A stretch of 13,144 nucleotides of DNA, from positions 1 to 13,144 of the forward strand of contig DAOVNI010000013.1 in assembly GCA_030630315.1 (NCBI GenBank), written 5' to 3'. Below, piece after piece: positions 1 through 13,144 of the stretch; positions within the stretch are counted from its first letter, which is position 1, and every line of letters begins with the position of its first letter. The position numbers and the translations under genes were made by a program. The notes beneath the pieces were generated by a model. The model ran no database searches and had not been told where the DNA came from. It saw nothing but the letters and a program-made list of their open reading frames with translations. Source of the DNA: Phycisphaerae bacterium. Lineage in GTDB: Bacteria > Planctomycetota > Phycisphaerae > Sedimentisphaerales > Anaerobacaceae.

Positions 1-510
1 AACCCCACACACGACGGAGGTAAGCTGATAGATGAGTTTATCGACGGTTATTACGGCGCGGCCGGGCCACATATCAAGGCATACCTGGAACTCATGCATA
101 ACGCGGTGGAAGCCAGCGGCGATTGGCTCGGCTGTTTTGCCGATATTGCTGCTTCCGATGTAAAGGTGGGCTGGGCCACGAAGGACCGCTCTAAATTCAT
201 CACCCTCGAAACTCTAAGCGAGGGCCTCGCTCACCTCAAAGCAGCGGAAGCAGCCGTCGCCGATGACGTTGACTTGCTCTTTCGTGTGCAGTGCGCGGAA
301 CTGCCGGTAATGTATGCCTTCATGATGTGCTGGAAACCCATGCGCCAGAAGGCGCAGGAAGCCGGCGCCGAATGGCCTATGCCCGATACCATTGATGACG
401 CTTTCAATCACTTCGTAAAAATTGCCCGGAAAAATAACATCACCCGCGTTGACGAATGGAACGTAGGATACGGCAACCTGGAAAAAGCGCTGAAACGTGC
501 GAAGAAATGA
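1..510 (+). CDS. DUF4838-like protein, C-terminal part (5' end outside window)
   Basis: The reading frame is open from the first base, giving 169 visible residues and a TGA stop at 508-510. The first residues (EFIDGYYGAAGPHIKAYLEL) resemble the C-terminal helical part of DUF4838 proteins, where a GYYG.A...I..Y motif is typical. The family is common in planctomycete and Bacteroidetes polysaccharide loci and is distantly related to alpha-glucuronidase-like glycosidases. The rest is a helical, Trp/Met-rich tail (RVQCAELPVMYAFMMCWKPM) with no catalytic motif in view. The Met at 94 is internal, not the start, because the family motif lies upstream of it. The downstream neighbour is another carbohydrate-active candidate, which fits a glycan-related locus. 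The family call rests on a short motif, so it is moderate; substrate unknown. Confidence 0.6.
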   Translation, partial: NPTHDGGKLIDEFIDGYYGAAGPHIKAYLELMHNAVEASGDWLGCFADIAASDVKVGWATKDRSKFITLETLSEGLAHLKAAEAAVADDVDLLFRVQCAELPVMYAFMMCWKPMRQKAQEAGAEWPMPDTIDDAFNHFVKIARKNNITRVDEWNVGYGNLEKALKRAKK

Positions 511-550
511 GCACTATGGCCAGCTTTTGGTACGGTCAGTAGGAAGCCGT

Positions 551-573
551 TAATAAATTGCGGGGGTAAATAT
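551..573 (+). repeat. short direct repeat, copy 1 (pairs with 771-791)
   Basis: The word ATAAATTG-C-GGGGGTAAATAT at 553-573 recurs at 771-791 with one mismatch (C to G). Both copies lie in the gene-free stretch 511-886, one on each side of the larger dispersed repeat. Confidence 0.6.
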
Positions 574-579
574 TTTTGG

Positions 580-614
580 GTTGCAGGTTGTGTGTTGGTA
601 AGTGGTAAGGGGGG
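580..614 (+). repeat. degenerate heptad array (GTTGNNN/AGTGGTA type)
   Basis: Five consecutive 7-base units can be laid out without slips (GTTGCAG, GTTGTGT, GTTGGTA, AGTGGTA, AGGGGGG). The units are degenerate, so alone this would be weak. It is listed because much clearer 7-bp arrays fill the spacers downstream in this window. Confidence 0.35.
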
Positions 615-620
615 ATTTTG

Positions 621-660
621 AGATTGTTACGCCCTGCAAAGCAGGCCTCGCAATGACGGC
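621..660 (+). repeat. dispersed palindromic element of the AGATTG...CAATGACG type
   Basis: The element opens with AGATTGTTACG, has a 5-bp inverted repeat CCTGC-AAA-GCAGG at 633-645, and closes with CTCGCAATGACGGC. Its outer ends resemble a widespread small intergenic repeat of environmental bacteria (AGATTGC...CTCGCAATGACG). It is non-coding as far as can be seen. Only one copy is present in this window. Confidence 0.5.
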
Positions 661-701
661 GCAGCAACCTTCAGGAAAGGCTTAATTCGTGCGGGACAGG
701 T

Positions 702-780
702 ATGGATTCCTGCTTGCGCAGGAATGACAATAAAGCGTCGGCGTGCCGGCGGCGGGTAAACAGCGCCCAAATAAATTGGG
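702..780 (+). repeat. dispersed REP-like repeat, copy 1
   Basis: Bases 702-761 match 5704-5763 at 55 of 60 positions in the same orientation; similarity continues more weakly to the G-run at 778-784. The left part is a hairpin: ATTCCTGC (706-713), 4-nt loop, GCAGGAAT (718-725), then GACAATAAAGCGTCG. This is the well-known repeat whose antisense reading gives the spurious peptide VIPAKAGI in many bacterial databases. Probably a REP/MITE-like element. Confidence 0.8.
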
Positions 781-791
781 GGGGTAAATAT
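771..791 (+). repeat. short direct repeat, copy 2 (pairs with 553-573)
   Basis: ATAAATTG followed by a G-run and TAAATAT; one mismatch to the copy at 553-573. It overlaps the right edge of the REP-like repeat, so the element boundary may extend to about 791. Confidence 0.55.
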
Positions 792-818
792 GAGTAACGG
801 GTGGTTTCAAAAAAACCG

Positions 819-846
819 TTGCAAAGATCCATATAAACTTTAAGAT
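819..846 (+). promoter_or_regulatory. candidate sigma70-type promoter for the DUF5060 gene
   Basis: TTGCAA at 819-824 as the -35 box, a 16-nt spacer, then TAAGAT at 841-846 as the -10 box. Initiation near 853 would leave a leader of about 34 nt before the ATG at 887. The -35 hexamer and spacing equal those of the better promoter at 2737-2764, but the -10 box is only a partial match. A TATAAA at 832-837 is too close to the -35 to be its partner. Confidence 0.35.
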
Positions 847-886
847 ACCTCTTACAGTTCAGTTGTGTATCCTTAAGGAGCAGGAA

Positions 887-2695
887 ATGAACCATCATAA
901 ATCAGTTTTATTGTGTGCGATTTGTTTCGTACTTGTCGCAGCATGCGATGTTTCGGCTGCAGCCAAAAATGTAGATATATCAGGTGAGTTAAAGAAGTGG
1001 CATAAGGTTACTCTTACTTTTTCGGGGCCCGATACAAGTGAAGAAGCTCAGCCCAATCCGTTTCGCGGCTATCGTCTGAATGTTACTTTTGCGAAGGGTA
1101 AGAAGCGATATGTTGTACCCGGCTACTATGCCGCTGACGGCAATGCCGGAGAAACCAGCGCAACTAAGGGCAATAAATGGCGTGTGCACTTTGCGCCCGA
1201 TGAAGTAGGTCAATGGTCTTATACAGCATCCTTCCGCACGGGGCGTGATATTGCTCTCAGCGGCGAGCCGACAGCCGGCTCGGCGCTTGCGTTCGACGGC
1301 GATAAAGGAAGGTTTACCGTTGGCCGCACTGATAAGACCGGACGAGACCATCGGGCCAAAGGATTGCTTAAATACGTCGGCAAGCGCTACCTGCAATTCG
1401 CCGAAACAGGCGAGTACTTCCTCAAAGGCGGCGCCGACAGCCCGGAAAACTTCCTCGGCTATGCCGACTTCGACGGCACGTACGACACCGCTGAGCTGAA
1501 ACGCAAAGGAGAAGCTGCGGGCGGGAAATTTCTGCATCGCTACGCCCCACACGTGCGGGATTTTGCGCCGGGCGACCCAACCTGGAAAAACGGCAAAGGA
1601 AAGGGCATCATCGGGGCTTTGAATTACCTGGCCGACAAGGGTATGAACAGCGTTTATTTTATCCCGTACAACATCGACGGCGGCGACGGCAAGGACGTCT
1701 GGCCGTGGACGGGCCCCAAAGAGAAATTCCGTTTCGACTGCAGCAAACTCGACCAATGGGAGATTGTTTTTTCGCATATGGACAAACTGGGCCTGATGCT
1801 CCACATCATTACGCAGGAGCAGGAAAACGACCAGGGCCTCGACGGCGGGGAACTCGGTCCGCAGCGCAAACTTTACTACCGTGAGTTAATCGCCCGGTTC
1901 GGACACCATCTCGCACTCGTGTGGAACCTCGGCGAGGAAAACACCAATACCGATTCGCAGCGCAAGGCCTTTGCCCGCTATATTAAAGAGGTTGACCCTT
2001 ACGACCACCCAGTCGTTATGCATACCTACCCCGGCAAATATGAGGAGTTTTACAGTCCATTACTGGGCTACGAGTACTTTGACGGACCGTCGCTGCAGAC
2101 AAACGACACCCACGCCCAGACCATCAAGTGGGTTGACCGTTCGGCTTCGGCCGGCCGTGCGTGGATTGTTTGCCTGGATGAAATCGGCCCCGCCCACACC
2201 GGCGTCAAGCCCGACAAGGATGACTACCGGCACGATGAAGTCCGCAAGAAACATTTATGGGGCAATCTAATGGCCGGCGGCGCCGGGGTGGAATGGTACT
2301 TCGGATACAACTACGCCCACAACGACCTCAACTGCGAGGATTGGCGCAGCCGGGAGCATATGTGGGACATCACCCGATACGCTTTGGAGTTCTTCCACGA
2401 GCACCTGCCCTTTACCGAAATGGCGCACCACGACGAGCTAACGCCGGCCAAAAACGACTACTGCTTCGCCAAGCCGGGTGAAATCTACGCCATCTACCTG
2501 CTTACCGGCGGCAGTACACACCTCGATTTGGGCGGGAGTTCGGCAACCTTCACTGTACGCTGGTACAACCCGCGTGCCGGCGGACTGCTGCAGAGAGGCA
2601 CCGTCGGCGTAATAACCGGCCCCGGCTCAGTCGGCATTGGCTATCCTCCACGGGACAGCGATAAAGATTGGGTCGCACTGATAAAGCTGAAATAA
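887..2695 (+). CDS. secreted DUF5060 / collagen-binding-like domain protein, putative glycoside hydrolase
   Basis: 602 residues. The ATG at 887 is chosen because AAGGAG (875-880) sits 6 nt upstream; an in-frame ATG at 863 has no such site. Residues 1-20 form a signal peptide ending in VAAC, a plausible lipobox (Cys20), though signal peptidase I cleavage after VSA is also possible. Residues about 37-145 match the DUF5060 beta-sandwich pattern (LTFSGP, NPFRGYRLNVTF, VPGYYAADG). The middle is a (beta/alpha)8-like domain with candidate catalytic acids in WNLGEEN (Glu350/351) and CLDEIG (Glu432), placed like the acid/base and nucleophile of clan-A glycosidases. Residues about 515-600 resemble the Collagen_bind_2 domain (GEIYAIYLL, TVRWYNPRAGG, final W-ALIKL). 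Expected outside the cytoplasm, acting on a plant or algal glycan; the substrate cannot be read from sequence, and catalytic residue assignment is inference. Confidence 0.85.
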   Translation: MNHHKSVLLCAICFVLVAACDVSAAAKNVDISGELKKWHKVTLTFSGPDTSEEAQPNPFRGYRLNVTFAKGKKRYVVPGYYAADGNAGETSATKGNKWRVHFAPDEVGQWSYTASFRTGRDIALSGEPTAGSALAFDGDKGRFTVGRTDKTGRDHRAKGLLKYVGKRYLQFAETGEYFLKGGADSPENFLGYADFDGTYDTAELKRKGEAAGGKFLHRYAPHVRDFAPGDPTWKNGKGKGIIGALNYLADKGMNSVYFIPYNIDGGDGKDVWPWTGPKEKFRFDCSKLDQWEIVFSHMDKLGLMLHIITQEQENDQGLDGGELGPQRKLYYRELIARFGHHLALVWNLGEENTNTDSQRKAFARYIKEVDPYDHPVVMHTYPGKYEEFYSPLLGYEYFDGPSLQTNDTHAQTIKWVDRSASAGRAWIVCLDEIGPAHTGVKPDKDDYRHDEVRKKHLWGNLMAGGAGVEWYFGYNYAHNDLNCEDWRSREHMWDITRYALEFFHEHLPFTEMAHHDELTPAKNDYCFAKPGEIYAIYLLTGGSTHLDLGGSSATFTVRWYNPRAGGLLQRGTVGVITGPGSVGIGYPPRDSDKDWVALIKLK

Positions 2696-2736
2696 TAAAC
2701 CCATAGTCACAATAGTTCAGCCGGTCAAAAAATCTG

Positions 2737-2764
2737 TTGCAAATGATTGCTCTGGCCTTATAAT
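2737..2764 (+). promoter_or_regulatory. sigma70-type promoter for the TPR/alpha-CTD gene
   Basis: TTGCAA (2737-2742), 16-nt spacer, perfect TATAAT (2759-2764). Transcription would start near 2771, giving a leader of about 76 nt before the ATG at 2847. It lies in the 151-nt gap after the glycosidase gene, so the TPR gene probably has its own transcript. Confidence 0.6.
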
Positions 2765-2846
2765 GCTTCCTCGTGGTGAGCGGTGGGTGAGAAGTATCGG
2801 GCAAAACAAGAATAATATACGATATAGGAATAAGGAGTAAATTGTT

Positions 2847-4181
2847 ATGGAACCAATTGCAGAGCTGGGAATCGACTTATTTGGCAAGGATTTGCCGTCA
2901 ATGGACGAGATTAAGATGTTCTCCGAGGCCGTCCATTGCAGCGAAAGGAACCAGATAGCCTTCAGTGAACAATTAGAGGCGAATATGGGGAGACAATCGC
3001 CAAAAGCCCGTCTGGCAGCTGGCATCGGGCTTTTTATTCTCGGTAGAAACGCCGAAGCAGCGGCGAAACTGCAAAAAGCACAGGACTGCAAAGAAAAATT
3101 CATATACCTGGCGTTTGCCCTTCGCCGAACGGGCAAATTCGATGAAGCAATCGAAAAGCTGCAAAAGAGTCTTGATTACGAAGCCGACACATTAAGCACA
3201 ACCCTGGAAAAAGTCGCCACATATCGGGATGCATCAAACTTTGACGCCGCAGCCAAGGAGCTGAAAAGCTGCGCAAATTTTGAAAATGTAAGTTCCGAAT
3301 ATCACCACCAGCTTGGCCGACTTCAGGAAATGCAGGGGCTTTACGAAGAAGCAATGGACAATTACAAAACAGCTGTGGAATTATCGCCCAATCATCAAAG
3401 AGCGCTTTTCCACCTGGCTTATCGCTGCGATTTGTCCGGCGATGAAGACGCCGCCATCGACTATTACACGCAAATCGCTTCAAGCTCTCCGGTTCACGTA
3501 AGTGCCCTGCTGAATTTAGCCGTGCTGTATGAAGATATGGGCCTGTTCAACAAAGCTCTTCAATGTATTGATATGGTGCTGGAGTCTCATCCGAATCATC
3601 AAAGAGCAATACTGTTCAAAAAAGACATCGAAAGCTCAGAAACAATGTTCTACGACGAGGAAAAAGAAAAGAAAAAAACCCGGAAAAGCCAAATTCTTGA
3701 AACGCCGATCTCTGATTTTGAGCTGTCGGTACGCAGCAGGAACTGCCTGAAAAAAATGAAGATCGAAACAATCGGCGACCTTTTGAATATCACCGAGGTA
3801 GAGCTGCTGTCTTATAAAAACTTTGGTGAGACCTCTCTTAGAGAAATCAAGAGCATTCTCGAAACAAAAACACTGCGCCTTGGTATGGCTCTGGAGGAAA
3901 AGCAGCTCCCTCCGGCAGAAATCTCCGAGCTCAGTGAGGCACAAGATGAAGATGAAGATGAAGACGAAGATGAAAGACTGTTAAACAAACCTATGGATGA
4001 CCTTCAATTATCGGTGCGTGCTCGAAAGTGCCTGGAAAAACTTGATATTCGCACCCTCGGGGATTTGACGCGCAAAACAGACGCCGAGCTGCTGGGGGTA
4101 AAAAACTTCGGGGTAACAAGCTTAAATGAGATCAGAAAGGCCATCGGCAACCTTGGCTTATCACTGCGAGCGCTGGATTAA
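2847..4181 (+). CDS. TPR protein with two C-terminal RNA polymerase alpha-CTD domains
   Basis: 444 residues; start supported by AAGGAG at 2832-2837, 9 nt upstream. No signal peptide, so cytoplasmic. Residues about 52-262 are TPR-like helical repeats (GKFDEAIEKLQKSLD, GLYEEAMDNYKTAVELSPNH, GLFNKALQCIDMVLESHPNH). Residues 283-347 are an alpha-CTD-like helix-hairpin-helix module: SVRSRNC (296-300) matches E. coli RpoA R265, N268 and C269, and NFGETSLREI matches G296, S299 and E302, with K298 replaced by Thr329. The tail LGMALE...LPPAEI copies the extreme C-terminus of RpoA (LGM.LE..PPA.I). An acidic linker (366-376, alternating Asp/Glu) leads to a second module (378-441), where N268 is replaced by Lys394 and K298 by Thr424. 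It may bind promoter UP-element DNA or RNA polymerase partners while the TPRs bind protein; this is inference. Confidence 0.9.
   Translation: MEPIAELGIDLFGKDLPSMDEIKMFSEAVHCSERNQIAFSEQLEANMGRQSPKARLAAGIGLFILGRNAEAAAKLQKAQDCKEKFIYLAFALRRTGKFDEAIEKLQKSLDYEADTLSTTLEKVATYRDASNFDAAAKELKSCANFENVSSEYHHQLGRLQEMQGLYEEAMDNYKTAVELSPNHQRALFHLAYRCDLSGDEDAAIDYYTQIASSSPVHVSALLNLAVLYEDMGLFNKALQCIDMVLESHPNHQRAILFKKDIESSETMFYDEEKEKKKTRKSQILETPISDFELSVRSRNCLKKMKIETIGDLLNITEVELLSYKNFGETSLREIKSILETKTLRLGMALEEKQLPPAEISELSEAQDEDEDEDEDERLLNKPMDDLQLSVRARKCLEKLDIRTLGDLTRKTDAELLGVKNFGVTSLNEIRKAIGNLGLSLRALD
3945..3974 (+). repeat. in-frame GATGAA microsatellite
   Basis: Five consecutive 6-base units, four GATGAA and one GACGAA, encode the Asp-Glu stretch of the linker between the two alpha-CTD modules. 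Length changes by slippage would add or remove Asp-Glu pairs without breaking the frame. Confidence 0.85.
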
Positions 4182-4209
4182 CCGATTGATTCCGTCCCGT
4201 CCAAGAAAG

Positions 4210-4244
4210 GCCGGATCTTCGACAAACGGACGCCGGATCTTCGA
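4210..4244 (+). repeat. 13-bp direct repeat, spacing 22 bp
   Basis: GCCGGATCTTCGA occurs at 4210-4222 and again, identical, at 4232-4244, between the TPR/alpha-CTD gene and the heptad array ahead of spoIID. No terminator-like U-tract follows, and no function is apparent. Confidence 0.7.
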
Positions 4245-4245
4245 T

Positions 4246-4322
4246 ATTGATTATTGATAAATGGTCATTGAAAAAAACATTAAAAATAATCAATTGAAAA
4301 TAATCAATAATCAATTGATTCG
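4246..4322 (+). repeat. heptad array with inverted arms (ATTGATT / AATCAAT)
   Basis: In one 7-bp register the left arm reads ATTGATT, ATTGATA, AATGGTC, ATTGAAA. The right arm has AATCAAT, the reverse complement of ATTGATT, at 4288, 4302 and 4309. A 12-bp perfect palindrome (AATCAATTGATT, 4309-4320) closes it. The 16-mer TATTGATTATTGATAA at 4245-4260 recurs identically at 6935-6950. The array overlaps the first codons of the spoIID reading frame. Confidence 0.65.
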
Positions 4323-5544
4323 GATAGTGTCTCTGCTTTTGCTGATAATTTTCGGCGGCTGCAAGGCAAGGCAGCTCACCAGGCCCACGCCACAGATGGA
4401 TATCGAACCAGAGTTCTGGGTAAGGGTGCTACTGCTCAATGATGTCACGGAGTGCACGCTGAAGATTGCTTCTCCCTTCAGTGTTATTAGCCACGACCCA
4501 CGCGTACCAGGGGTACGAAACTATTCTGACCGGCTCAATGTGCCGCTGAAGATAGAGATGTCTGCCGGCACAATCACGGTCGCCGGTCAACCCTTAACGG
4601 ACAGCGAGGCGATTATCCTGCCCGGTGCCCCGTACATCTTTAACCTGAATGGCAACGATTACCGCGGCAAATTAAAGCTGCAAATCGGCCCTGACGGCAG
4701 CTCTTTTGACGCGGTAAACCTTGTGCCGCTTGAGCCGTATTTAGCCGGCGTAGTAGGCGCCGAGATGCCTGATTACTGGGAACCGGCGGCACTGAAAGCA
4801 CAGGCGATCGCCGCAAGAACCTATTGCCTGTATATCAAAAAGCGTTTTGGCAGGAACCGCGCCTGGGACGTCAGGAAAACACAGGCACATCAGGTTTACC
4901 TCGGCGTCATAGCCGAATCGGCCCAGATATGGGAGGCCGTCAACGGGACATACGGGCGGGTTTTAGTCTGTAAGAGGCCCGACGGCACTGAAGGTATCTT
5001 CCCCACTTACTACAGCTCAATCTGCGGCGGGCACACCGAAGATAGCGAGCACGTATTCGGCGACTCTTTTGAGGCACTCGTTGGCCGTCCCTGTCCCTAT
5101 TGCAAAGATGTAGCCAAACGCAGCTTTTTCTACTGGCCTACGGTTCAGTTCGATAAGGCCTATGTGACAGCCAGACTATTACGGAGGTATCCAAAGCTGA
5201 AACAACTTGGCGAAATCACGAACATAATTTCCGCCAGGCAAAGTAACTACGGAAAATTTTCGCGAGTGACGCTGGTCAAACTCATCGGCTCAACCGGCAA
5301 AAGTGATTTCCTGCGAGCGGAGGACTTCCGTCTTACAATCGACCCAAGCGGCAGTAAAATAAAAAGCGCGATTTGCCAAATTATCGACTGGGGCGATAAA
5401 TGGGAATTTTCGTCAGGGATAGGTTACGGCCACGGCGTAGGAATGTGTCAGTGCGGCGCCCAGGCAATGGCAAGGGAAGGCAAAACCGCTGAGCAGATAC
5501 TTTCATATTACTACCGCGGCTCTAAGATTGTAAGAGTCTATTGA
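4261..5544 (+). CDS. spoIID: SpoIID-family peptidoglycan lytic transglycosylase, putative lipoprotein
   Basis: 427 residues from the ATG at 4261. The SpoIID domain covers about 140-427: LEPYLAGVVGAEMP with catalytic-type Glu168, LKAQAIAARTYCLY, YYSSICGGHTEDSE (Cys255, His258) and CPYC (Cys278, Cys281) as possible metal ligands, and the C-terminal signature GYGHGVGMCQCGAQAMA. In sporulating Firmicutes the family cleaves glycan strands lacking stem peptides; homologues occur in many non-sporulating bacteria including planctomycetes, where a cell-wall role is likely. Residues about 20-34 form a signal sequence ending in FGGC, a loose lipobox (Cys34). The start is unsure: no ribosome binding site precedes 4261, and the first ~20 codons lie inside a heptad repeat. 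A TTG at 4315 or GTG at 4327 would give a more usual signal peptide. It heads the co-directional envelope gene block. Confidence 0.9.
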   Translation: MVIEKNIKNNQLKIINNQLIRIVSLLLLIIFGGCKARQLTRPTPQMDIEPEFWVRVLLLNDVTECTLKIASPFSVISHDPRVPGVRNYSDRLNVPLKIEMSAGTITVAGQPLTDSEAIILPGAPYIFNLNGNDYRGKLKLQIGPDGSSFDAVNLVPLEPYLAGVVGAEMPDYWEPAALKAQAIAARTYCLYIKKRFGRNRAWDVRKTQAHQVYLGVIAESAQIWEAVNGTYGRVLVCKRPDGTEGIFPTYYSSICGGHTEDSEHVFGDSFEALVGRPCPYCKDVAKRSFFYWPTVQFDKAYVTARLLRRYPKLKQLGEITNIISARQSNYGKFSRVTLVKLIGSTGKSDFLRAEDFRLTIDPSGSKIKSAICQIIDWGDKWEFSSGIGYGHGVGMCQCGAQAMAREGKTAEQILSYYYRGSKIVRVY

Positions 5545-5573
5545 AAACGTAAAACTATACCATAAAAGCAAAA

Positions 5574-5668
5574 TTCGAAATCCGAAGCACGAAATACGAA
5601 ACAAATTCGAATGCGGATATGCACGCTTCTGACAGGCGTGACCGAAATACAAAATTCAAAACGAATTA
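5574..5668 (+). repeat. heptad arrays (TTCGAAA / TACGAAA family)
   Basis: Four units in perfect 7-bp register at 5574-5601 (TTCGAAA, TCCGAAG, CACGAAA, TACGAAA), a 4-nt slip, then TTCGAAT and GCGGATA at 5606-5619. A second short run follows at 5641-5668 (ACCGAAA, TACAAAA, TTCAAAA, CGAATTA). Between them is a small inverted repeat CACGC...GCGTG (5622-5640). This and the REP-like copy fill most of the 294-nt gap between spoIID and tgt (5545-5838), where I see no gene. Confidence 0.65.
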
Positions 5669-5703
5669 AGCCACAGAAAACACAGAGAAGGAATTAAAAG
5701 AAA

Positions 5704-5784
5704 ATGGATTCCTGCTTTCGCAGGAATGACAATAAAGCGTCGCCGTGCCGACGACGGCTAAACGACCCTCAGTAAAACTGGGGG
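5704..5784 (+). repeat. dispersed REP-like repeat, copy 2
   Basis: Bases 5704-5763 match 702-761 at 55 of 60 positions, same orientation. Hairpin ATTCCTGC (5708-5715), loop TTTC, GCAGGAAT (5720-5727). Beyond 5763 both copies continue to a G-run (5780-5784) with reduced similarity. Confidence 0.8.
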
Positions 5785-5800
5785 CTGAATACAAGGAAGA

Positions 5801-5829
5801 ATGGGTTGCCACTTTCGCGGGAATGACAG
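5801..5829 (+). repeat. degenerate partial third REP-like copy, abutting tgt start
   Basis: TTGCCACTTTCGCGGGAATGACAG resembles the right half of the REP-like hairpin (CTTTCGCAGGAATGACAA at 5715-5732), with a decayed left arm. It ends about 10 nt before the tgt ATG, where a ribosome binding site would be expected. Confidence 0.5.
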
Positions 5830-5838
5830 AAAAAAACA

Positions 5839-6933
5839 ATGGCTGACTTCCAAATTCTCCATCAGGATTCCAACTCTGCGGCCCGGGTAGGATTATTAAG
5901 CACGGCCCACGGGGAGGTCGAAACGCCTGTGTTTATGCCGGTCGGCACCGCGGGCGCGGTAAAGGGAATCACACCGCAGCAGCTCAAAGAAACCGGTTCC
6001 GTACTTATTCTGGCCAATACGTACCATTTGCTGCTTCGGCCCGGCGTCGATGTGGTGGAGGCGCTTGGCGGACTGCATAAAGTTATGGCGTGGAACAAAC
6101 CGATACTGACCGACAGCGGCGGATATCAAATCTTTTCTCTAAGCGGGCTTACCAAAATCGACGATGACGGCGTTGAATTTGCCAGTCACGTAGATGGGGC
6201 AAAAATATACCTGAACGCTGAAATCGCAACAAAGATCCAGAATCGGCTGGATGCGGATATAATAATGTGCCTCGACCAATGTACACACTTTCCATGTGAT
6301 GACACGCAGCTTAAAAAAGCGGTAGAAAGAACCATCCGCTGGGCGAAGCGCGCCAAAGAGGCCCACGCCAATGACGGCCAGATGCTGTTCAGCGTCGTCC
6401 AGGGCGGAATAAACCGCGACCTGCGAAGTTACTGCGCCGAGGAACTTGTCAAATTGGGTTTTAACGGGTATGCTATCGGCGGATTAAGTGTAGGTGAAGG
6501 ACACGACAATATGATAAAAACGGTCGTTCATACAACGAAGTTTTTGCCGCAGGACAAGCCTCGCTATCTAATGGGCGTCGGCACCCCAGGCGATATCATT
6601 GCCGCGGTCAAGGCCGGCGTCGATATGTTCGATTGCGTCCTGCCAACCCGAAACGGACGAAACGCCTGCGCTTTTACCGAAAACGGCCTTTTACGAATGA
6701 GGAACAGTGCCCATATAAACGACGGCGGACCAATCGAGGCCGGCTGCGACTGTTACTGCTGCAGGAATTTTAGCCGGGGCACTATCAGACATTTCTTTAA
6801 TGTCGGAGAAATGCTGGGCCCAATCTTAGTGTCCCTGCATAACCTGAGGTTTTACCAGAGACTAATGGCGAAAATAAGGCAGGCCCTGAAAAAAGACGAA
6901 TTTGCCGACTGGGCAGAAAGAATTGATTATTGA
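5839..6933 (+). CDS. tgt: tRNA-guanine transglycosylase (queuine tRNA-ribosyltransferase)
   Basis: 364 residues, near the usual ~370-375 of bacterial Tgt. It exchanges guanine for preQ1 at tRNA wobble position 34 in the queuosine pathway, in the cytoplasm. Landmarks: TDSGGYQIFSL with Asp92 (general base type), VVQGG (187-190), GVDMFDCVLPTRNGRNA with nucleophile-type Asp265, and the zinc site Cys303, Cys305, Cys308, His334. An extra Cys307 lies between the zinc ligands. No clear Shine-Dalgarno precedes the ATG; the upstream 40 bases are a degenerate repeat. The last residues (Ile-Asp-Tyr-stop) are encoded inside a heptad array, so the exact C-terminus may be drifting. tgt next to yajC-secD-secF is a common bacterial gene order. 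Confidence 0.97.
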   Translation: MADFQILHQDSNSAARVGLLSTAHGEVETPVFMPVGTAGAVKGITPQQLKETGSVLILANTYHLLLRPGVDVVEALGGLHKVMAWNKPILTDSGGYQIFSLSGLTKIDDDGVEFASHVDGAKIYLNAEIATKIQNRLDADIIMCLDQCTHFPCDDTQLKKAVERTIRWAKRAKEAHANDGQMLFSVVQGGINRDLRSYCAEELVKLGFNGYAIGGLSVGEGHDNMIKTVVHTTKFLPQDKPRYLMGVGTPGDIIAAVKAGVDMFDCVLPTRNGRNACAFTENGLLRMRNSAHINDGGPIEAGCDCYCCRNFSRGTIRHFFNVGEMLGPILVSLHNLRFYQRLMAKIRQALKKDEFADWAERIDY

Positions 6934-6949
6934 CTATTGATTATTGATA
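6922..6949 (+). repeat. heptad array across the tgt stop codon (ATTGATT type)
   Basis: Four units without slip: ATTGATT, ATTGACT, ATTGATT, ATTGATA. The tgt stop TGA (6931-6933) lies within the second unit. The segment 6935-6950 is identical to 4245-4260 ahead of spoIID. Confidence 0.75.
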
Positions 6950-7012
6950 AAAAATAAAAAGTCGTTAGTATTTGTTATTTGGCCGGCGCTTTTACCGTCG
7001 GTTATCACAATA

Positions 7013-7040
7013 CGAAATGCGATGTACGAAATTATGAAGG
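7013..7040 (+). repeat. heptad array ending in the yajC ribosome binding site
   Basis: Units CGAAATG, CGATGTA, CGAAATT, ATGAAGG in a strict 7-bp register. The last unit contains GAAGG, the likely Shine-Dalgarno of yajC, 10 nt before its ATG. Confidence 0.65.
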
Positions 7041-7050
7041 GAAAACAAAA

Positions 7051-7470
7051 ATGGACAATATATGGATATTAGCGCAAGCCGAAACCAACGAACTACCTTC
7101 ACGTGTTGAAGCAACACCAGTCACTGAGGAAGGCGAAGCAACGCAGAAGATCCCATCCGACCCCAATGCTCTGCGTGAAACTCGGAAACCAGGCCCCTTC
7201 GGAGGCTCCTCCTCGTGGATTTTTATTGGTTTGATGTTCGTAGTGATGTACTTTCTGCTATTTAGAGGGCCTCGGAAAAAACAGCAGCAACATAAACAAA
7301 TGGTGCAATCGCTGGGAAAAAATGACAGAGTCCAGACAATCGGCGGAATTATCGGAACCGTCGTTGACATCAAGGATGACGAGATTACATTGAAAGTCGA
7401 TGAGTCGAATAATACGAAAATAAAAGTTAGCCCTTCAGCAATCGGAAGGAATTTGTCGAAAGATAAGTAG
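7051..7470 (+). CDS. yajC: YajC, Sec translocase accessory subunit
   Basis: 139 residues from the ATG at 7051, preferred over a TTG at 6979 because GAAGG (7036-7040) precedes it and the upstream codons fall in a repeat. YajC is a small single-span inner-membrane protein that associates with SecDF-YidC and SecYEG. The membrane span is at about 55-71 (WIFIGLMFVVMYFLLF), followed by the basic RGPRKKQQQHKQMVQSL and the typical soluble domain (GKNDRVQTIGGIIGTVVDIKDDEITLKVDE). About 50 Pro/Glu/Thr-rich residues precede the span, longer than in E. coli YajC. The 3' end (last ten codons, AIGRNLSKDK, and stop) recurs in modified form at the end of the next gene. Confidence 0.95.
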   Translation: MDNIWILAQAETNELPSRVEATPVTEEGEATQKIPSDPNALRETRKPGPFGGSSSWIFIGLMFVVMYFLLFRGPRKKQQQHKQMVQSLGKNDRVQTIGGIIGTVVDIKDDEITLKVDESNNTKIKVSPSAIGRNLSKDK

Positions 7471-7551
7471 TTCGTAGTTCGTAGTTCATAGTTCGTAGTT
7501 CATAGTTCGTAGACTACGAATTACGCGATACTCGATACGATATACGAGGGA
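7471..7551 (+). repeat. heptad array between yajC and the short secD (TTCGTAG / CTACGAA)
   Basis: Six perfect-register units at 7471-7512, each TTCGTAG or TTCATAG, begin on the base right after the yajC stop. After one base, the inverse word CTACGAA (7514-7520) starts a second run at the same 7-bp period (CG-led units at 7517, 7524, 7531, 7538, 7545). The last unit, CGAGGGA, supplies the ribosome binding site of the next gene. The only perfectly paired core is 7506-7512 with 7514-7520. Confidence 0.85.
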
Positions 7552-7555
7552 AGTT

Positions 7556-8593
7556 ATGGGCAAGAATCCGGCGCCGAAACTCGTTTTAATTATTGTTCTG
7601 GTGGTTGTCGGCATTTTTCTTCTGTTCGCCGGCGTGGTTTCCACTATATATATCGCCAGGAAAGTGCGGATACTTCCAACAGATATGACGGGTGGAACAA
7701 GTCTTGTCTATGCAATTGACACGAGAGGTTTAAGTGAGGAGGAGAAGAAAGACCTGTCGCGAATAATGATAGCCGTTTTGCAAAGGCGAATAGACCCCGC
7801 CAACATCCAGAACCTTGTATGGCGGCCTCTGGGCAACACTCGCTTCGAAATACAAATCCCACCGGCAAGTTTCTATAACCCGAATGACCTGCAAAGGATG
7901 CTAAAAGGTGCCGGCATACTGGAATTTAGAATACTGCCAACACTGGGACACGAAAAAGTGGACTCAGACGAGATGACCGGCTACGCTGAATCCCTTAGAG
8001 AAAAAGGGCCGAAATACGCCTTAGACAATAAACATGTATGGTGTGAAATAGAAAATATTAACGAATGGATGGGAGTCGACGAACAAGGACGTCCTTTCGT
8101 TAGGGTATTAGATGGACAACAACGCCCTTCGGTTGTCGCCCAATTTGGCGAGAAACATTACGTCCTGGCAAGCAACAAACAGGGTGAGACTATGCTGCAC
8201 AGCGCCGGCGGAAAGGGTTGGAGATTAAAAAAAGCTAAGCTGGAAACCGATAGGATGGGCCGAAGAGCTATCGGGTTCACACTGGATGAAAGAGGCGGAA
8301 AAGTATTCTTTACGGTTACCGAGAAAAATCTTGATCGACCGCTTTGTGTTCTCCTTGATGGAATCGCCATATCGGCACCGACTATTCAAGCGAGGATAAG
8401 CACCGAGGGTATAATAACGGGCAACTTCACACAAACAAAAGTCGAAGATATCGTCAATAAACTAAACGCCGGTTGTTTGCCCGCCAGACTGATAGAACAG
8501 CCCATCTCGGTAAAGATAATCGGCCCGCCCATCGGCGCAGACAATCACGATAAAGGTACAGCAATCGAAGGCAATTCGTCGAAAGATAAATAG
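7556..8593 (+). CDS. truncated SecD paralogue: membrane anchor plus periplasmic domain only
   Basis: 345 residues; GAGGG at 7546-7550, ATG 5 nt later. One membrane span (about 8-31), then a SecD first-periplasmic-domain sequence closely similar to the downstream SecDF; residues 115-142 are identical to SecDF 326-353, with only three synonymous base changes. The usual first motif GIDLAGG is altered to PTDMTGG (41-47). The protein ends just where SecD enters its membrane bundle (GADNHDKG, 327-334). It therefore lacks the five C-terminal spans and the conserved Asp-containing motif needed for proton-driven function. It also lacks a ~226-residue insert that SecDF carries after IQMPLAS; here PPAS joins LQRMLKGAG through about six residues. 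The last ten residues (AIEGNSSKDK) are a copy of the YajC tail. It could modulate SecDF or bind exported chains in the periplasm; function unknown. The intact frame and start site argue against a dead gene. Confidence 0.85.
   Translation: MGKNPAPKLVLIIVLVVVGIFLLFAGVVSTIYIARKVRILPTDMTGGTSLVYAIDTRGLSEEEKKDLSRIMIAVLQRRIDPANIQNLVWRPLGNTRFEIQIPPASFYNPNDLQRMLKGAGILEFRILPTLGHEKVDSDEMTGYAESLREKGPKYALDNKHVWCEIENINEWMGVDEQGRPFVRVLDGQQRPSVVAQFGEKHYVLASNKQGETMLHSAGGKGWRLKKAKLETDRMGRRAIGFTLDERGGKVFFTVTEKNLDRPLCVLLDGIAISAPTIQARISTEGIITGNFTQTKVEDIVNKLNAGCLPARLIEQPISVKIIGPPIGADNHDKGTAIEGNSSKDK
8559..8593 (+). repeat. duplicated yajC 3' end fused to the short secD
   Basis: 8559-8593 aligns in frame with 7436-7470 (yajC), beginning with the identical CAGCAATCG and sharing GTCGAAAGATAA before the stop TAG; offset 1123 bp. 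Before 8559 the sequence instead follows secDF (matching 10321 and upstream). This marks the junction of a tandem duplication. Confidence 0.8.
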
Positions 8594-8678
8594 TTAGATG
8601 CTCGATACTGGATGCTCGATACTCGTAAGACCAAAACGAGAACCGAGTATCGAATAGCGAGTATCGAGAATCGAGGGA
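8594..8678 (+). repeat. heptad array folding into a long hairpin ahead of secDF
   Basis: Five 7-bp units directly after the stop of the short secD (8594-8628; CTCGATA at 8601 and 8615), a 15-nt linker, then five CGA-led units at 8644, 8651, 8658, 8665 and 8672. The arms are inverted: 8601-8625 pairs with 8644-8668 at 21 of 25 positions plus one G-U, with an 18-nt loop. The last unit, CGAGGGA (8672-8678), is the secDF ribosome binding site, just 3' of the stem. It may act on translation or transcript stability; no U-tract follows, so it is not a typical terminator. Confidence 0.85.
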
Positions 8679-8682
8679 AGTT

Positions 8683-11600
8683 ATGGGTAAGAATCTGGTG
8701 CCGAGAATCATCTTAGTTACCGTTTTAGTGCTTGCTGCAGCCTTCGTTCTATGGCGGTATGACATAAGGCAGGGAATCGACCTGGCAGGCGGAACAAGTC
8801 TTATCTACGAGATTGATGCCCAGGGGCTCAAACCCGAAGAAAAGAAAGACCTGTCGCAGAGAACGATAACGGTTCTGCGAAGGCGAATAGACCCCGCCAA
8901 CATTCAGAACCTTATATGGCGTCCGCTGGGCAACACGCGCTTCGAAATACAAATGCCGCTGGCAAGTGCAGGAGCGCGCGCGAAACGCCAGAACTACGAA
9001 AAATCCCTCAAGGAGCTGCTGGACAAAAACATAACCCGCGCAAGAGTCATGCGTTCCCTACAGTGGCCGGTAGAACAGCGAACAGAAGATTTCAATGATT
9101 TCGCCCAGGGCGACCCTAATAGACTAACAATTCTCGATACCCTCGCCAAAGCTTATGACGAACGCAAGGAGCTGCAAAATGAAAGAGACAAGCTCCTCTC
9201 GGAACTCGAAACCTCAGAACAAGAGATGTCATCGGAGGGTCTCGACCCAAACGAGGTAAAGCTAAATGTTGCGGATTGGAACACGCTTGATGTGAATGAG
9301 CTTGCAGACTCACTGAAAGAATTTGCCGAACCTAATGAACACGTTGAGATGCTCGGCAAGTACGTCAAGAAATATTCCGACTGGGCAGAGGTTGTCAACC
9401 AGCTAACCGAGCCGGAAACAGGCAAGAACAAGCAATACGAAAATGCGAAAAAAGACCTCGATAAATTAAACCTCACCGAAGAGCAGATAAACATCTGTCT
9501 CGAAATGTCCCCCAAGTCAGTGGATAGACGCCGGGAAATCGAAAGACTCAAAGCCGTGTTCGCAGACCGGACAGATAACATCGACAATGTAGTGGCAGCA
9601 TTCGACGAGTATCGCCCATTCAGAGGAAGACTGGACGACTGGAGAGCCCTCCACCGAATGCTAAAAGGCGCTGGCATACTGGAATTTAGAATACTGCCAA
9701 CACTGGGACACGAAAAAGTGGACTCGGACGAGATGACCGGACAAGTTGACCTGCTAAAGACAAAGGGGCCTAAATTTGCTTCAGCCGCCTCAAAAGGCAA
9801 ATATGTATGGTGCGAAGTAGAAAGTATTAATGAATGGATGGGAGTCAACGAAGAAGGACGTCCTTTTGTTACGGTATTAGACAGACAAGACCATCCTGCG
9901 GTTATTGGCCAATTTGGGAACAAATATTACGCCCTGGCAAGCAACAAGCAAGATGAGGTTATACTGCACAGCGCCGGCGGAGAGGATTGGACATTAAAAG
10001 CCTATCCGACAACTGACAGGATGATGCGAAGAGCTATCGGGTTCACACTGGATGAAAGAGGCGGAAGAGTATTCTTCAGGGTTACGGGTAAAAATCTTGA
10101 CCGACCACTTTGTGTTCTCCTTGACGGAATCGCTATATCGGCACCGACTATTCAAGCGAGGATAAGCACCCAGGGTATAATAACAGGCAGCTTCACACGA
10201 ACAGAAGTTGAAGACATGGTCAACAAACTAAACGCCGGCTCTTTGCCCGCACGGCTGATAGAGCAGCCCATTTCGGTAAAAACAATCGGGCCATCCATCG
10301 GCGCCGACAATCGGGACAAAGGTATCAAAGCCGGTTTAATCGGCTTATGTCTGGTAGTTCTGTGTATGCTGGTTTACTATACGCTTGCCGGCTCAATTGC
10401 CGACGTCGCAGTGCTTATGAACCTGCTGTTTGTTCTGGCAATAATGGCAGGGGTCCGAGCAACTTTCACATTGCCCGGCATCGCGGGCATCATACTAATC
10501 ATCGGTATGAGTGTTGACGCCAACGTCCTTATTTTCGAGAGAATCCGGGAAGAGCAGCAGAAAGGCTCATCGCTGAGAATCGCCATAAAGAACGGCTACC
10601 AAAGGGCATTTAGAACTATTTTAGATGCCAACCTGACTACATTCATCACCGCTGCGATACTTTTCTGGCAGGCGTCGGAAGAAGTAAAGGGCTTTGCTAT
10701 TGTGCTTATGCTCGGTATCGCCTCGAGTATGTTCACCGCATTGTTTGTAACCCGGGTAATTTTCGATTTTCTCCTGGGGCGGCGAATTATTAAAGACCAT
10801 TTATTTATGCTCCGCTTGATACGCAAACCCAACATAAACTGGATGGCCTTGCGGCCGATTTTCTTGTTCATCTCAATTGTCCTTACTGCAGCAGGTCTGT
10901 TTGTCTTCTTTACAAAAGACGATAAATACGATATCGAATTTACGGGCGGAACAAGCGCCCAAATCAATCTGAAAGAACCCCGAACCAGGCAGTATGTGGA
11001 AGATAGAATCCGTGAAATCGGAGACGACCCGAACAATCCCAACCCCGTTCTTGCGGCTGCGAACGTCTACAGCATCGGAAAGTCCGGCAAGCAATATGAA
11101 ATCAACACCACAGAAACAAACAAAACCACCGCTACCGTTACTTTTCCGGAAGCCGGGCAGCATACTGTTGAAAGAGTAATTTCAGCAATTAAAAAGACCC
11201 AGGCTGAATTTGACGGCAGTCTAATCAATCTTCGAGTAACGCCGCTTAGTAATCCAACGGGATTTAAAATAACAACGAGTCAGGTGAACAAAACCCTGGT
11301 AACAAATGTGCTGACAACAGCTTTTGCAGATGCCAATATCTCAGAACCACAAGTTGACGAGGTTGTCAATGATGCAATACTAAAAGCTTTCGGGGACGAG
11401 CTGGAAATCCAGCAGGACCTTCAACCGGAAATCGCCTCGGAGGAGAAAATAAGTGAAGAGCTTATAGATTCCTACCCCGAGCTTGCTGATTTTCTGGGCG
11501 GTGTTAAAATCACGTGCGAAATAGAAAAGGCGGCCACAGCAGAAGAAATCAACACCAGATTGGCGGATTTGCGATTCAAGCCCGATATGCAAAATCTCAT

Positions 11601-12420
11601 TTGGTCATATTCGTATGAAATCCTCGGCTCAGACCTAAACGCGATGGAGCCGAACCAGCCGGTAAATTCCTTTGTCTATATCAGTGTTGAGCCGGAAGCA
11701 GGATTTCGGGAACTAAGCGAGGATGAATGGACACAGTTTGTCGAAAACGAAAGAACCAAAGTCTTAGCTGCAACCCGGCTGGAAGGGTCACTGCCCCGAG
11801 TGAGACAGTTTGACCCCTCGGTCGGCGCAGAGGCAAAGACACAGGCACTGATTGCAATTATCCTGTCATTGTTCGCAATTGTTACTTATATCTGGATTCG
11901 ATTCGGAAATGTCCGCTATGGGATTGCGGCAATTGTGGCCCTGGTGCACGATGTATGTATCACACTCGGTGCCATTATCGCCTGCAGCTATATCGCGGGA
12001 ACGCCGATTGGTGAAAAACTGCTGATTGGAGATTTCAAGATCAACCTGGCGATAATAGCCGCTCTTCTAACAATCATAGGATACTCACTTAACGATACTA
12101 TTGTGGTTTTCGACCGTATTCGGGAAAATCGACGCAAGGCCCCGCTCAATCCACAGATAATTACCGACAGCATTAACCAGACCCTTTCCAGAACCATTCT
12201 AACATCGTTCACAACGTTTATAGTAGTGCTGATAATGTACATCTTCGGCGGCCCGGGGCTGAGAGGCTTCACCTTCGCAATCGGCCTCGGCATTATCATA
12301 GGCACCTATTCGTCGATTGCGATAGCCGCGCCGGTATTGCTGCTCGGCACCGGGGCCGCAAAGACGACCAAAAAGAGCGTTTGGGACCGCACCAAGACCA
12401 AAAATGAAAAAAGTAAATAG
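8683..12420 (+). CDS. secDF: SecDF fusion, proton-driven protein export factor
   Basis: 1245 residues, much longer than typical fused SecDF (about 740-760). GAGGG at 8673-8677 precedes the ATG. SecD half: first span about 5-25, GIDLAGGTS (31-39), periplasmic domain to about 545, five spans about 550-695 with LPGIAGIILIIGMSVDANVLIFERIREE (Asp612, matching the key Asp of SecD). SecF half: span about 727-745, EFTGGT (752-757), large periplasmic part to about 1045, DPSVGAEAKTQAL (from 1044), spans about 1056-1230 with GYSLNDTIVVFDRIREN (Asp1138). SecDF uses proton motive force to pull translocating chains on the outer face of SecYEG. Two oversize regions explain the length: residues about 96-321 (charged, helical, part likely coiled coil around DERKELQNERDKLLSEL) and the enlarged SecF periplasmic domain (about 290 residues versus about 100 in E. 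coli). It sits downstream of a truncated SecD copy and tgt-yajC. Confidence 0.97.
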   Translation: MGKNLVPRIILVTVLVLAAAFVLWRYDIRQGIDLAGGTSLIYEIDAQGLKPEEKKDLSQRTITVLRRRIDPANIQNLIWRPLGNTRFEIQMPLASAGARAKRQNYEKSLKELLDKNITRARVMRSLQWPVEQRTEDFNDFAQGDPNRLTILDTLAKAYDERKELQNERDKLLSELETSEQEMSSEGLDPNEVKLNVADWNTLDVNELADSLKEFAEPNEHVEMLGKYVKKYSDWAEVVNQLTEPETGKNKQYENAKKDLDKLNLTEEQINICLEMSPKSVDRRREIERLKAVFADRTDNIDNVVAAFDEYRPFRGRLDDWRALHRMLKGAGILEFRILPTLGHEKVDSDEMTGQVDLLKTKGPKFASAASKGKYVWCEVESINEWMGVNEEGRPFVTVLDRQDHPAVIGQFGNKYYALASNKQDEVILHSAGGEDWTLKAYPTTDRMMRRAIGFTLDERGGRVFFRVTGKNLDRPLCVLLDGIAISAPTIQARISTQGIITGSFTRTEVEDMVNKLNAGSLPARLIEQPISVKTIGPSIGADNRDKGIKAGLIGLCLVVLCMLVYYTLAGSIADVAVLMNLLFVLAIMAGVRATFTLPGIAGIILIIGMSVDANVLIFERIREEQQKGSSLRIAIKNGYQRAFRTILDANLTTFITAAILFWQASEEVKGFAIVLMLGIASSMFTALFVTRVIFDFLLGRRIIKDHLFMLRLIRKPNINWMALRPIFLFISIVLTAAGLFVFFTKDDKYDIEFTGGTSAQINLKEPRTRQYVEDRIREIGDDPNNPNPVLAAANVYSIGKSGKQYEINTTETNKTTATVTFPEAGQHTVERVISAIKKTQAEFDGSLINLRVTPLSNPTGFKITTSQVNKTLVTNVLTTAFADANISEPQVDEVVNDAILKAFGDELEIQQDLQPEIASEEKISEELIDSYPELADFLGGVKITCEIEKAATAEEINTRLADLRFKPDMQNLIWSYSYEILGSDLNAMEPNQPVNSFVYISVEPEAGFRELSEDEWTQFVENERTKVLAATRLEGSLPRVRQFDPSVGAEAKTQALIAIILSLFAIVTYIWIRFGNVRYGIAAIVALVHDVCITLGAIIACSYIAGTPIGEKLLIGDFKINLAIIAALLTIIGYSLNDTIVVFDRIRENRRKAPLNPQIITDSINQTLSRTILTSFTTFIVVLIMYIFGGPGLRGFTFAIGLGIIIGTYSSIAIAAPVLLLGTGAAKTTKKSVWDRTKTKNEKSK

Positions 12421-12435
12421 ATGACAGGAGATGGA

Positions 12436-12463
12436 CGATATACTATACACAATACGCTATACG
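12436..12463 (+). repeat. short heptad array between secDF and the LysM gene
   Basis: Units CGATATA, CTATACA, CAATACG, CTATACG in 7-bp register. It lies in the 64-nt gap after the secDF stop. Weaker than the arrays ahead of the sec genes but the same period. Confidence 0.55.
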
Positions 12464-12484
12464 ATTTGGCAATGAGCGCCAAAA

Positions 12485-12874
12485 ATGCAAAAAGATTTGA
12501 AAATAGGAATGGTTCTTGGCCTGGTACTGACAATCGTCGCTGTGCTCTGGCTCTCTACCCGCCCCAGTATGAGTACAAAAGCACGGATGCTGAACTCTTA
12601 CAATGCCGGGGCCCGGCAGGAATCTACGGAGCAGCCGGTTCTTGCTCTCGTTGCTAAGGTTGAAACCGAACAAAGTAACGTGCCGGACTTAACAGCCCGC
12701 AAAGAAGTCGAGAAACAAATTCATACCATCCGTGAGGGTGAAACGCTCTCCGGCATTTCCCGGGAATACTACGGCTCCGAAAACAAATGGCAAAAGATTC
12801 TTAATGCCAACCGAAATGTTATAAGAGATGCAAACAAGCTCAAGCCGGGAACAAAATTAATCATCCCAGAATAA
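12485..12874 (+). CDS. small membrane-anchored LysM-domain protein
   Basis: 129 residues. One N-terminal span at about 8-23 (GMVLGLVLTIVAVLWL) after MQKDLKI, so the protein is probably inner-membrane anchored with its C-terminus in the periplasm. A Ser/Gln/Glu-rich linker (about 24-75) leads to a C-terminal LysM domain (78-128): HTIREGETLSGISREYYG, then WQKILNANRNVI, ending in KLKPGTKLIIPE. LysM domains bind N-acetylglucosamine-containing glycans, mainly peptidoglycan. There is no catalytic domain. The ribosome binding site is weak (GAG near 12474). It follows secDF in the same direction after 64 nt, so co-transcription is likely. The link to the SpoIID-type enzyme at the start of the block suggests a shared peptidoglycan theme. 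Confidence 0.9.
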   Translation: MQKDLKIGMVLGLVLTIVAVLWLSTRPSMSTKARMLNSYNAGARQESTEQPVLALVAKVETEQSNVPDLTARKEVEKQIHTIREGETLSGISREYYGSENKWQKILNANRNVIRDANKLKPGTKLIIPE

Positions 12875-12937
12875 ACTCAAAACTAAAGAAAAAGTGAAAA
12901 GCCCACCGGCGTACCCTCCTGACCCGAATTGCTACAG

Positions 12938-13144
12938 TTAGAGTGCTTTTGCGGCGTCGCTGTCAACGAGCCAGGTGACCTTATCAAGAATGGGCCAGAG
13001 AACGTGAATGGGATACCGCACTTCGTCCGGCTCGCTGGTGAGAACCTCTTTCAAGATGCCGGCCTTTTCCTGCCCGGAAACCAGCACAGCCAGATGAGAT
13101 GCGGCACGTAAAACGGGATGCGTCAATGTTATGCGGTTTAGCTT
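12938..13144 (-). CDS. pgl: 6-phosphogluconolactonase, C-terminal part (5' end outside window)
   Basis: The minus-strand frame is open from the window edge to the TAG at 12938-12940, giving 68 C-terminal residues. The stretch RITLTHPVLRAASHLAVLVS, then GQEKAGILKEVL, and the ending KVTWLVDSDAA fit the C-terminal part of the 6-phosphogluconolactonase (DevB/SOL) family, which hydrolyses 6-phosphogluconolactone in the oxidative pentose phosphate pathway in the cytoplasm. The related NagB-type deaminases are less likely because of the THPVL and TWL.D patterns. It converges on the LysM gene with a 63-nt gap in which I see no convincing terminator. Confidence 0.8.
   Translation of the reverse strand, partial: KLNRITLTHPVLRAASHLAVLVSGQEKAGILKEVLTSEPDEVRYPIHVLWPILDKVTWLVDSDAAKAL

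Follow-up and report, generated by a model that had tools for sequence, protein, structure and literature searches.

The region analysed here lies on a contig of the uncultured planctomycete Phycisphaerae bacterium (GCA_030630315.1, contig DAOVNI010000013.1, positions 1-13,144, forward strand); the whole of this stretch of 13,144 nucleotides is referred to below as the window, and its genome as G000, or W where genes are compared. Between yajC and a full-length fused secDF, the window carries a short secD-like gene. The genes and features needed in the following are:

5839-6933: tgt.
7051-7470, forward strand: yajC, 139 aa with ATG taken as start (Pfam YajC, E 3e-26).
7436-7470, forward strand: 3′ end of yajC, the apparent source of the short-gene tail, judging from the tail match and from YajC endings in 27 genomes.
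7471-7555, forward strand: spacer between yajC and the short gene, with short direct repeats; its last part is the start context CGAGGGAAGTT.
7556-8593, forward strand: short secD-like gene, 345 aa, with a single N-terminal anchor, a complete P1 domain and a yajC-derived tail.
7556-7873, forward strand: codons 1-106 of the short gene, covering the anchor and the first part of P1, unconverted.
7958-8515 (approximate), forward strand: converted core of the short gene, residues about 135-320, grouping with the SecDF of its own genome or genus.
8559-8593, forward strand: yajC-derived tail of the short gene, with the joint at 8558/8559; predicted to be disordered.
8594-8682, forward strand: spacer between the short gene and secDF, with a strong predicted hairpin.
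8683-12420, forward strand: secDF, full-length and fused, 1245 aa.
8971-9645 (boundaries approximate), forward strand: P1 insert of the long gene, missing from the short gene.
9718-10281 (approximate), forward strand: part of secDF (P1 core) that putatively served as conversion partner.
12485-12874: LysM gene.

Two further observations concern the surroundings. The window also encodes, at 2847-4181, a TPR protein with two C-terminal RNA polymerase alpha C-terminal domains (PF03118, two stretches, E 9e-42), and one literature search on it found nothing. The window SecDF is without the LYPP.KTLKPG segment after helix 1 (8683-8790), which nearly all relatives' printed SecDF N-termini have in this or a close form.

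The short protein is recognized by the SecD P1 model PF22599 with 71.5 bits (cut-off 27) and stays below the cut-off of the curated secD model (88.3 versus 244.4 bits). It has a single hydrophobic segment and thus no SecD membrane bundle (TM2-6). Neither PF02355 nor the YajC domain PF02699 was found in it when sought, and what it shares with YajC is confined to the last ten codons and the stop. The membrane bundle—in SecDF the part that uses the proton gradient—is missing along with an insert of ~225 aa (~675 nt). It had been claimed in a first-pass annotation that the two copies have diverged mainly by substitution; this is correct only in part, as the short gene lacks the insert (about 8971-9645) and its anchor is longer by 8 residues. 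In the predicted structure, a helix spans residues 6-39, the P1 domain is mostly modelled with pLDDT >90 and the tail with pLDDT <50. Among solved structures, the closest folds are those of SecDF and of its P1 fragment; 3aqo aligns with a TM score of 0.69 by target length and an rmsd of 8.9, so that the sub-domains fit with a shifted orientation at best. A profile search of solved sequences agrees with the assignment to SecDF.

The origin of the tail can be read from yajC itself. Positions 7436-7470 and 8559-8593 are identical at 30 of 35 nucleotides, ungapped, in the same reading frame and at an offset of 1123, and the match opens with the identical 9-mer CAGCAATCG. Ten codons and the stop are shared, encoding AIGRNLSKDK in yajC and AIEGNSSKDK in the short gene. 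When the tail was shuffled 2000 times with dinucleotides preserved, the local score of 48 was never attained (shuffle maximum 35), and the best of the other 35 pairs among the 9 compared ORF ends reaches 19/35. Homology of the short gene to the long secD extends as far as 8558 (AAAGGTA); the joint therefore stands at 8558/8559. Tail and junction are thus confirmed as first annotated, and the parts of the chimera follow each other in the order expected of the proposed tandem duplication by one crossover, namely yajC, secD head plus yajC tail, and secDF. The same annotation had drawn attention to 16 bases, CGAGGGAAGTTATGGG, at both gene starts. They are indeed identical at 7545-7560 and 8672-8687. 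Since G001 and G002, two genomes of the same genus without the short gene, have a nearly identical segment before secDF, it is to be taken as a conserved feature of secD starts and not as a trace of recent copying. Among the YajC endings of 27 family genomes, SAIG is present in 22 and the exact form SAIG[KR]NLSKDK in five (G000, G001, G002, G022, G045). The exact form is confined to the three genera with the short gene, close forms occurring elsewhere; this may reflect chance or kinship.

Relatives were searched with the short protein (three genomes of the genus, 89 of the family), with a profile of three short proteins (161 genomes of the order, 397 of the class), and with an N-terminal profile (392 genomes of the phylum). 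Genomes with any match numbered 3/3, 83/89, 151/161, 387/397, and 168/392, respectively, and nearly all matches listed lie within SecDF. Contiguous short genes are present in the window genome, in G022 (another genus) and in G045 (a third genus; MAG Sedimentisphaerales bacterium Zod_Metabat.1017), that is, in at least 3 of the 161 order genomes, among the matches listed. A scan of named genomes returned three loci, of which one, the G045 contig, is relevant. Among the matches listed in the class (397) and phylum (392) draws, a contiguous short gene is seen in G000 alone, G022 and G045 being outside them. Diverged short genes could be missed where weak matches fall in open frames shorter than about 700 aa, whether at contig ends or otherwise, which lay outside the case-by-case check.

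The chimeric gene sought in related planctomycetes is present in G022 with the same joint and tail. Across the joint, the short genes of W and G022 are identical at 37 of 43 nucleotides; the G022 gene ends GIEGNMSKDKS where that of the window ends AIEGNSSKDK, 29 of 36 nucleotides of its tail agree with the yajC end of G022, and both chimeric tails have IEGN where YajC has IG[KR]N. A one-base loss and gain common to both tails relative to yajC is not claimed, the gapped alignment of G022 being different. Given the common joint, the fusion either arose before the two genera separated or was moved between them. The G045 gene, of uncertain start codon, ends RTITQKNGS and is a relative carrying the short gene with no recognizable yajC-like tail, an observation that the first-pass annotation had named as speaking against its proposal: the best local match falls in a different part of yajC, 37 of 1000 shuffles attain its score, and no yajC tail is claimed for this gene. 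The match to the short-gene model continues beyond the G045 stop codon, with one TAA inside, so that later loss of the tail is possible, albeit unproven. All three short genes have in common 8 extra anchor residues, the missing insert, an end before the membrane bundle and, in the N-terminal part, the motif DMTGGT. Apart from these, two family genomes (G036 and G041) carry lone anchor-plus-P1 SecD genes with a reduced insert, located away from secDF and lacking the yajC tail:

L041:1425-2639: lone anchor-plus-P1 SecD gene, 405 aa.
L042:1286-2491: lone anchor-plus-P1 SecD gene, 402 aa.

A profile of these two, run against the 89 family genomes, ranks only the same two above the SecDFs, among the matches listed.

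N-terminus and core of the short gene have different histories. Reciprocal tree tests were carried out under LG+G4 on 28 of 38 rows (G036_p1, G041_p1 and 8 SecDFs were left out, long branches being among the reasons), and mixture-model trees of N-terminus and core on all 38. If every lineage had truncated its own secD independently, each short gene would resemble its own SecDF and the common ends would be convergent. The core fits this expectation: in columns 113-322, uniting the short genes in a single clade is worse by 155 lnL (p-AU 1.5e-7, 28/38 rows), the mixture model on 38 rows also rejects one short clade (p-AU 2e-6), and each short gene groups with its own SecDF, although in the core tree W_short joins its genus at 99 (starred) and W_long specifically at only 26. 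Independent origins would also dispense with the many losses that a single origin needs. The N-terminal 106 columns speak against them, since placing each short gene with the SecDF of its own genus is worse by 84.5 lnL (p-AU 5e-8, 28/38 rows), and still by 81.4 lnL (p 3e-4) with G045 unconstrained. In the N-terminal tree of 38 rows, a branch of 99 (starred) separates the three short genes, along with the two lone P1 genes, from all of the 33 SecDFs, with long branches flagged. Single-pair N-terminal tests under the mixture model are weaker (W pair p 0.098, G022 pair p 0.04, G045 pair p 0.44), and its free search left the three short genes unjoined, a joined tree then proving 12 lnL better. Taking the combined test together with the anchor, insert and end common to all three and the joint and tail common to W and G022, independent duplications are very unlikely. 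The joint common with G022 and the N-terminal tree rule out a recent duplication: contrary to the first impression of a fresh scar, the event is old and extends beyond this genome.

Cumulative site support changes sides near residue 130-140, and marks of single lineages are found in both copies: the short and long genes of G045 are both without the same 11 residues, the G022 short gene has a block in common with its own long gene, and HEKVDSDEMTG occurs in both window copies. At synonymous sites, the core of the W short gene is closer to that of W long (pS 0.30, 0.22-0.38) than to that of the G022 short gene (0.60, 0.50-0.69), with intervals apart; for the G022 core, the values are 0.47 (0.37-0.56) versus 0.60 (0.50-0.69), with slight overlap. 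The synonymous distances, clear for W and less so for G022, agree with the trees; they are explained most simply by gene conversion, convergence of the proteins alone being insufficient. As expected of concerted evolution, the core is thus more alike between paralogs of one genome than between orthologs of different genomes, with homogenization extending to synonymous sites, while the ends show the reverse. Taken together, trees and distances indicate that the core was gene-converted with the adjacent secDF separately in each lineage, in one direction or the other. They support the view that the likeness of the short and long bodies would stem from later conversion, not from the time since duplication.

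The unconverted ends bear on age and selection. Between the short genes of W and G022, the ends differ with a pS of 0.53 (0.38-0.68), compared with 0.56-0.63 for SecDF pairs of those genera, and with a pN/pS of 0.19 (0.11-0.31), compared with 0.20-0.33 for SecDF; the similar pS and the low pN/pS argue for vertical descent and purifying selection, in line with the earlier suggestion that the short gene was kept. A functionless fragment in decay, its likeness to secDF maintained by conversion alone, would account for the absence of the gene from most searched relatives, for the predicted disorder of the tail and for the pN/pS of 0.40 (0.27-0.60) between the W short and long cores. Such decay is improbable nonetheless, given frames that are open in three genera, a P1 fold predicted to be intact and unconverted ends as constrained as SecDF.

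The distribution of the gene is patchy. In the tree of SecDFs from 33 genomes—those with loci on hand, the family having 83 matching genomes—carriers are scattered, and at least 3 changes in gene presence are needed. G001 and G002 have yajC directly upstream of secDF, and no short gene was present in any of the 26 yajC-secDF spacers extracted from non-carriers, these two included; the spacers, none longer than 107 nt, represent 26 of the 31 SecDF genomes besides W and G022 (33 SecDF loci). Being scattered and rare, the carriers require either many losses after an old single origin or transfer. Transfer between genera, followed by conversion to the resident SecDF, would explain the patchiness but is unlikely, as the gene occupies the same locus in all three carriers and the pS of the ends, within wide intervals, is that expected of vertical descent.

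Short repeated units occupy both window spacers (7471-7555 and 8594-8682) and the pre-secDF spacers of G001, G002, G012, G022, G062, and others; matches in the spacer set are raised over shuffles at lags 4, 7, 8, 14, and 16. The units differ at equivalent places in sister species, and their reverse complement often comes directly after them. A TGGTAAC type precedes secDF in G001 and a GATGAGT type in G002, and one of each flanks the short gene of G022. The exact TGGTAAC-type pattern has 30 matches in G001, 8 in G002, 5 in G000, and none in G022 or G045, some of them overlapping; the GATGAGT-type pattern has 1 in G000, none in G001, 2 in G002, 1 in G022, and none in G045. That the spacer types are footprints of lost short genes was considered and dropped, because the TGGTAAC-type pattern is dispersed in the genus.

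Between 8591 and 8700, a strong RNA hairpin is predicted before secDF (z -3.1, 1/200 shuffles as stable), with the ribosome-binding site unpaired. Stalling secretion-monitor leaders encoded upstream of secDF are known (PMC10987492): an exported protein such as VemP or ApdA/ApdP stalls its ribosome and thereby opens the secDF start. Like these leaders, as that text describes them, the short gene lies immediately upstream of secDF in the fitting orientation and encodes an N-terminal membrane signal, and a hairpin is predicted ahead of secDF. In contrast to them, it encodes a long domain predicted to be fully folded, no RAPP-like stall motif was found near the C-terminus of the W, G022 or G045 proteins, and the ribosome-binding site would be free despite the predicted hairpin. 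A role as secretion monitor is therefore extremely unlikely.

The short gene is a genuine partial duplicate, chimeric and old, and it resembles secDF because its middle was converted, not because it is young; the duplication and fusion proposed in the first-pass annotation are thus partly supported. We consider it probable that an old partial tandem duplicate has had its core repeatedly gene-converted with secDF, the ends remaining separate under purifying selection. Before several genera of this family of Sedimentisphaerales diverged, an unequal exchange in their ancestor would have fused the stretch of secD encoding the end of P1 to the final ten codons of yajC, giving the order yajC—secD head plus yajC tail—secDF, to which the joint common to two genera points. 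The short copy would then have lost the P1 insert and acquired its distinctive anchor with 8 extra residues, while, independently in every lineage, gene conversion may have copied the P1 region of the neighbouring secDF into its core or swapped sequence between the two. The anchor, early P1 and tail would either escape conversion or be kept from it by selection, and, to judge from W and G022, appear to have long evolved separately and to be constrained by purifying selection.

The product most probably serves the export machinery as an anchored P1 accessory: a single-anchor, periplasm-facing P1 that would hold emerging substrates beside SecDF without proton-driven motion. More tentatively, it may be a distinct, selected stand-alone P1 whose core is matched to SecDF by conversion and whose anchor and tail are private, acting as a passive substrate clamp or joining SecDF in mixed complexes. 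The yajC-derived tail, disordered in the model of the protein, is probably no more than a passive scar; if the topology is that of SecD, it presumably lies on the membrane side opposite YajC's own tail. The locus thus offers a plain example from nature of a chimeric partial duplicate that has lasted long and whose joint can be traced to both parents. Conversion hides the age of the middle and the ends retain the older history, so that the identity of the tandem copies alone would mislead towards a recent duplication. The gene also points to a SecD P1 domain operating without the proton-driven bundle, and makes help to export by P1 alone testable.

Titles and abstract openings in the literature, subscription journals mostly lying outside this scope, yielded no lone or chimeric SecD P1 paralog and no gene conversion of secD. 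With SecD and fused SecDF (TIGR01129, PF22599; 3aqo, 3aqp, 5xan), the short protein shares the N-terminal anchor and P1; it differs by the absence of bundle and insert, by DMTGGT in place of DL[AGK]GGT and by the added yajC tail. Streptomyces has two SecDF forms, one fused and one with separated SecD and SecF (PMC4139356), and hence likewise an extra SecD-type paralog, but not a lone P1; "truncat" and "P1 domain" have no occurrence in the main text of that paper. Concerted evolution in prokaryotes has been described for 26 genes, and tandem mtrA with its fusion and shuffling of domains figures among the cases (PMC6053082, in whose main text "secD" does not occur). As in the present case, those paralogs are, according to that text, closer within a genome than orthologs across genomes, which is ascribed to gene conversion. 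In contrast to the cases described there, the core alone is homogenized here, the ends stay separate and one of the partners is a truncated chimera.
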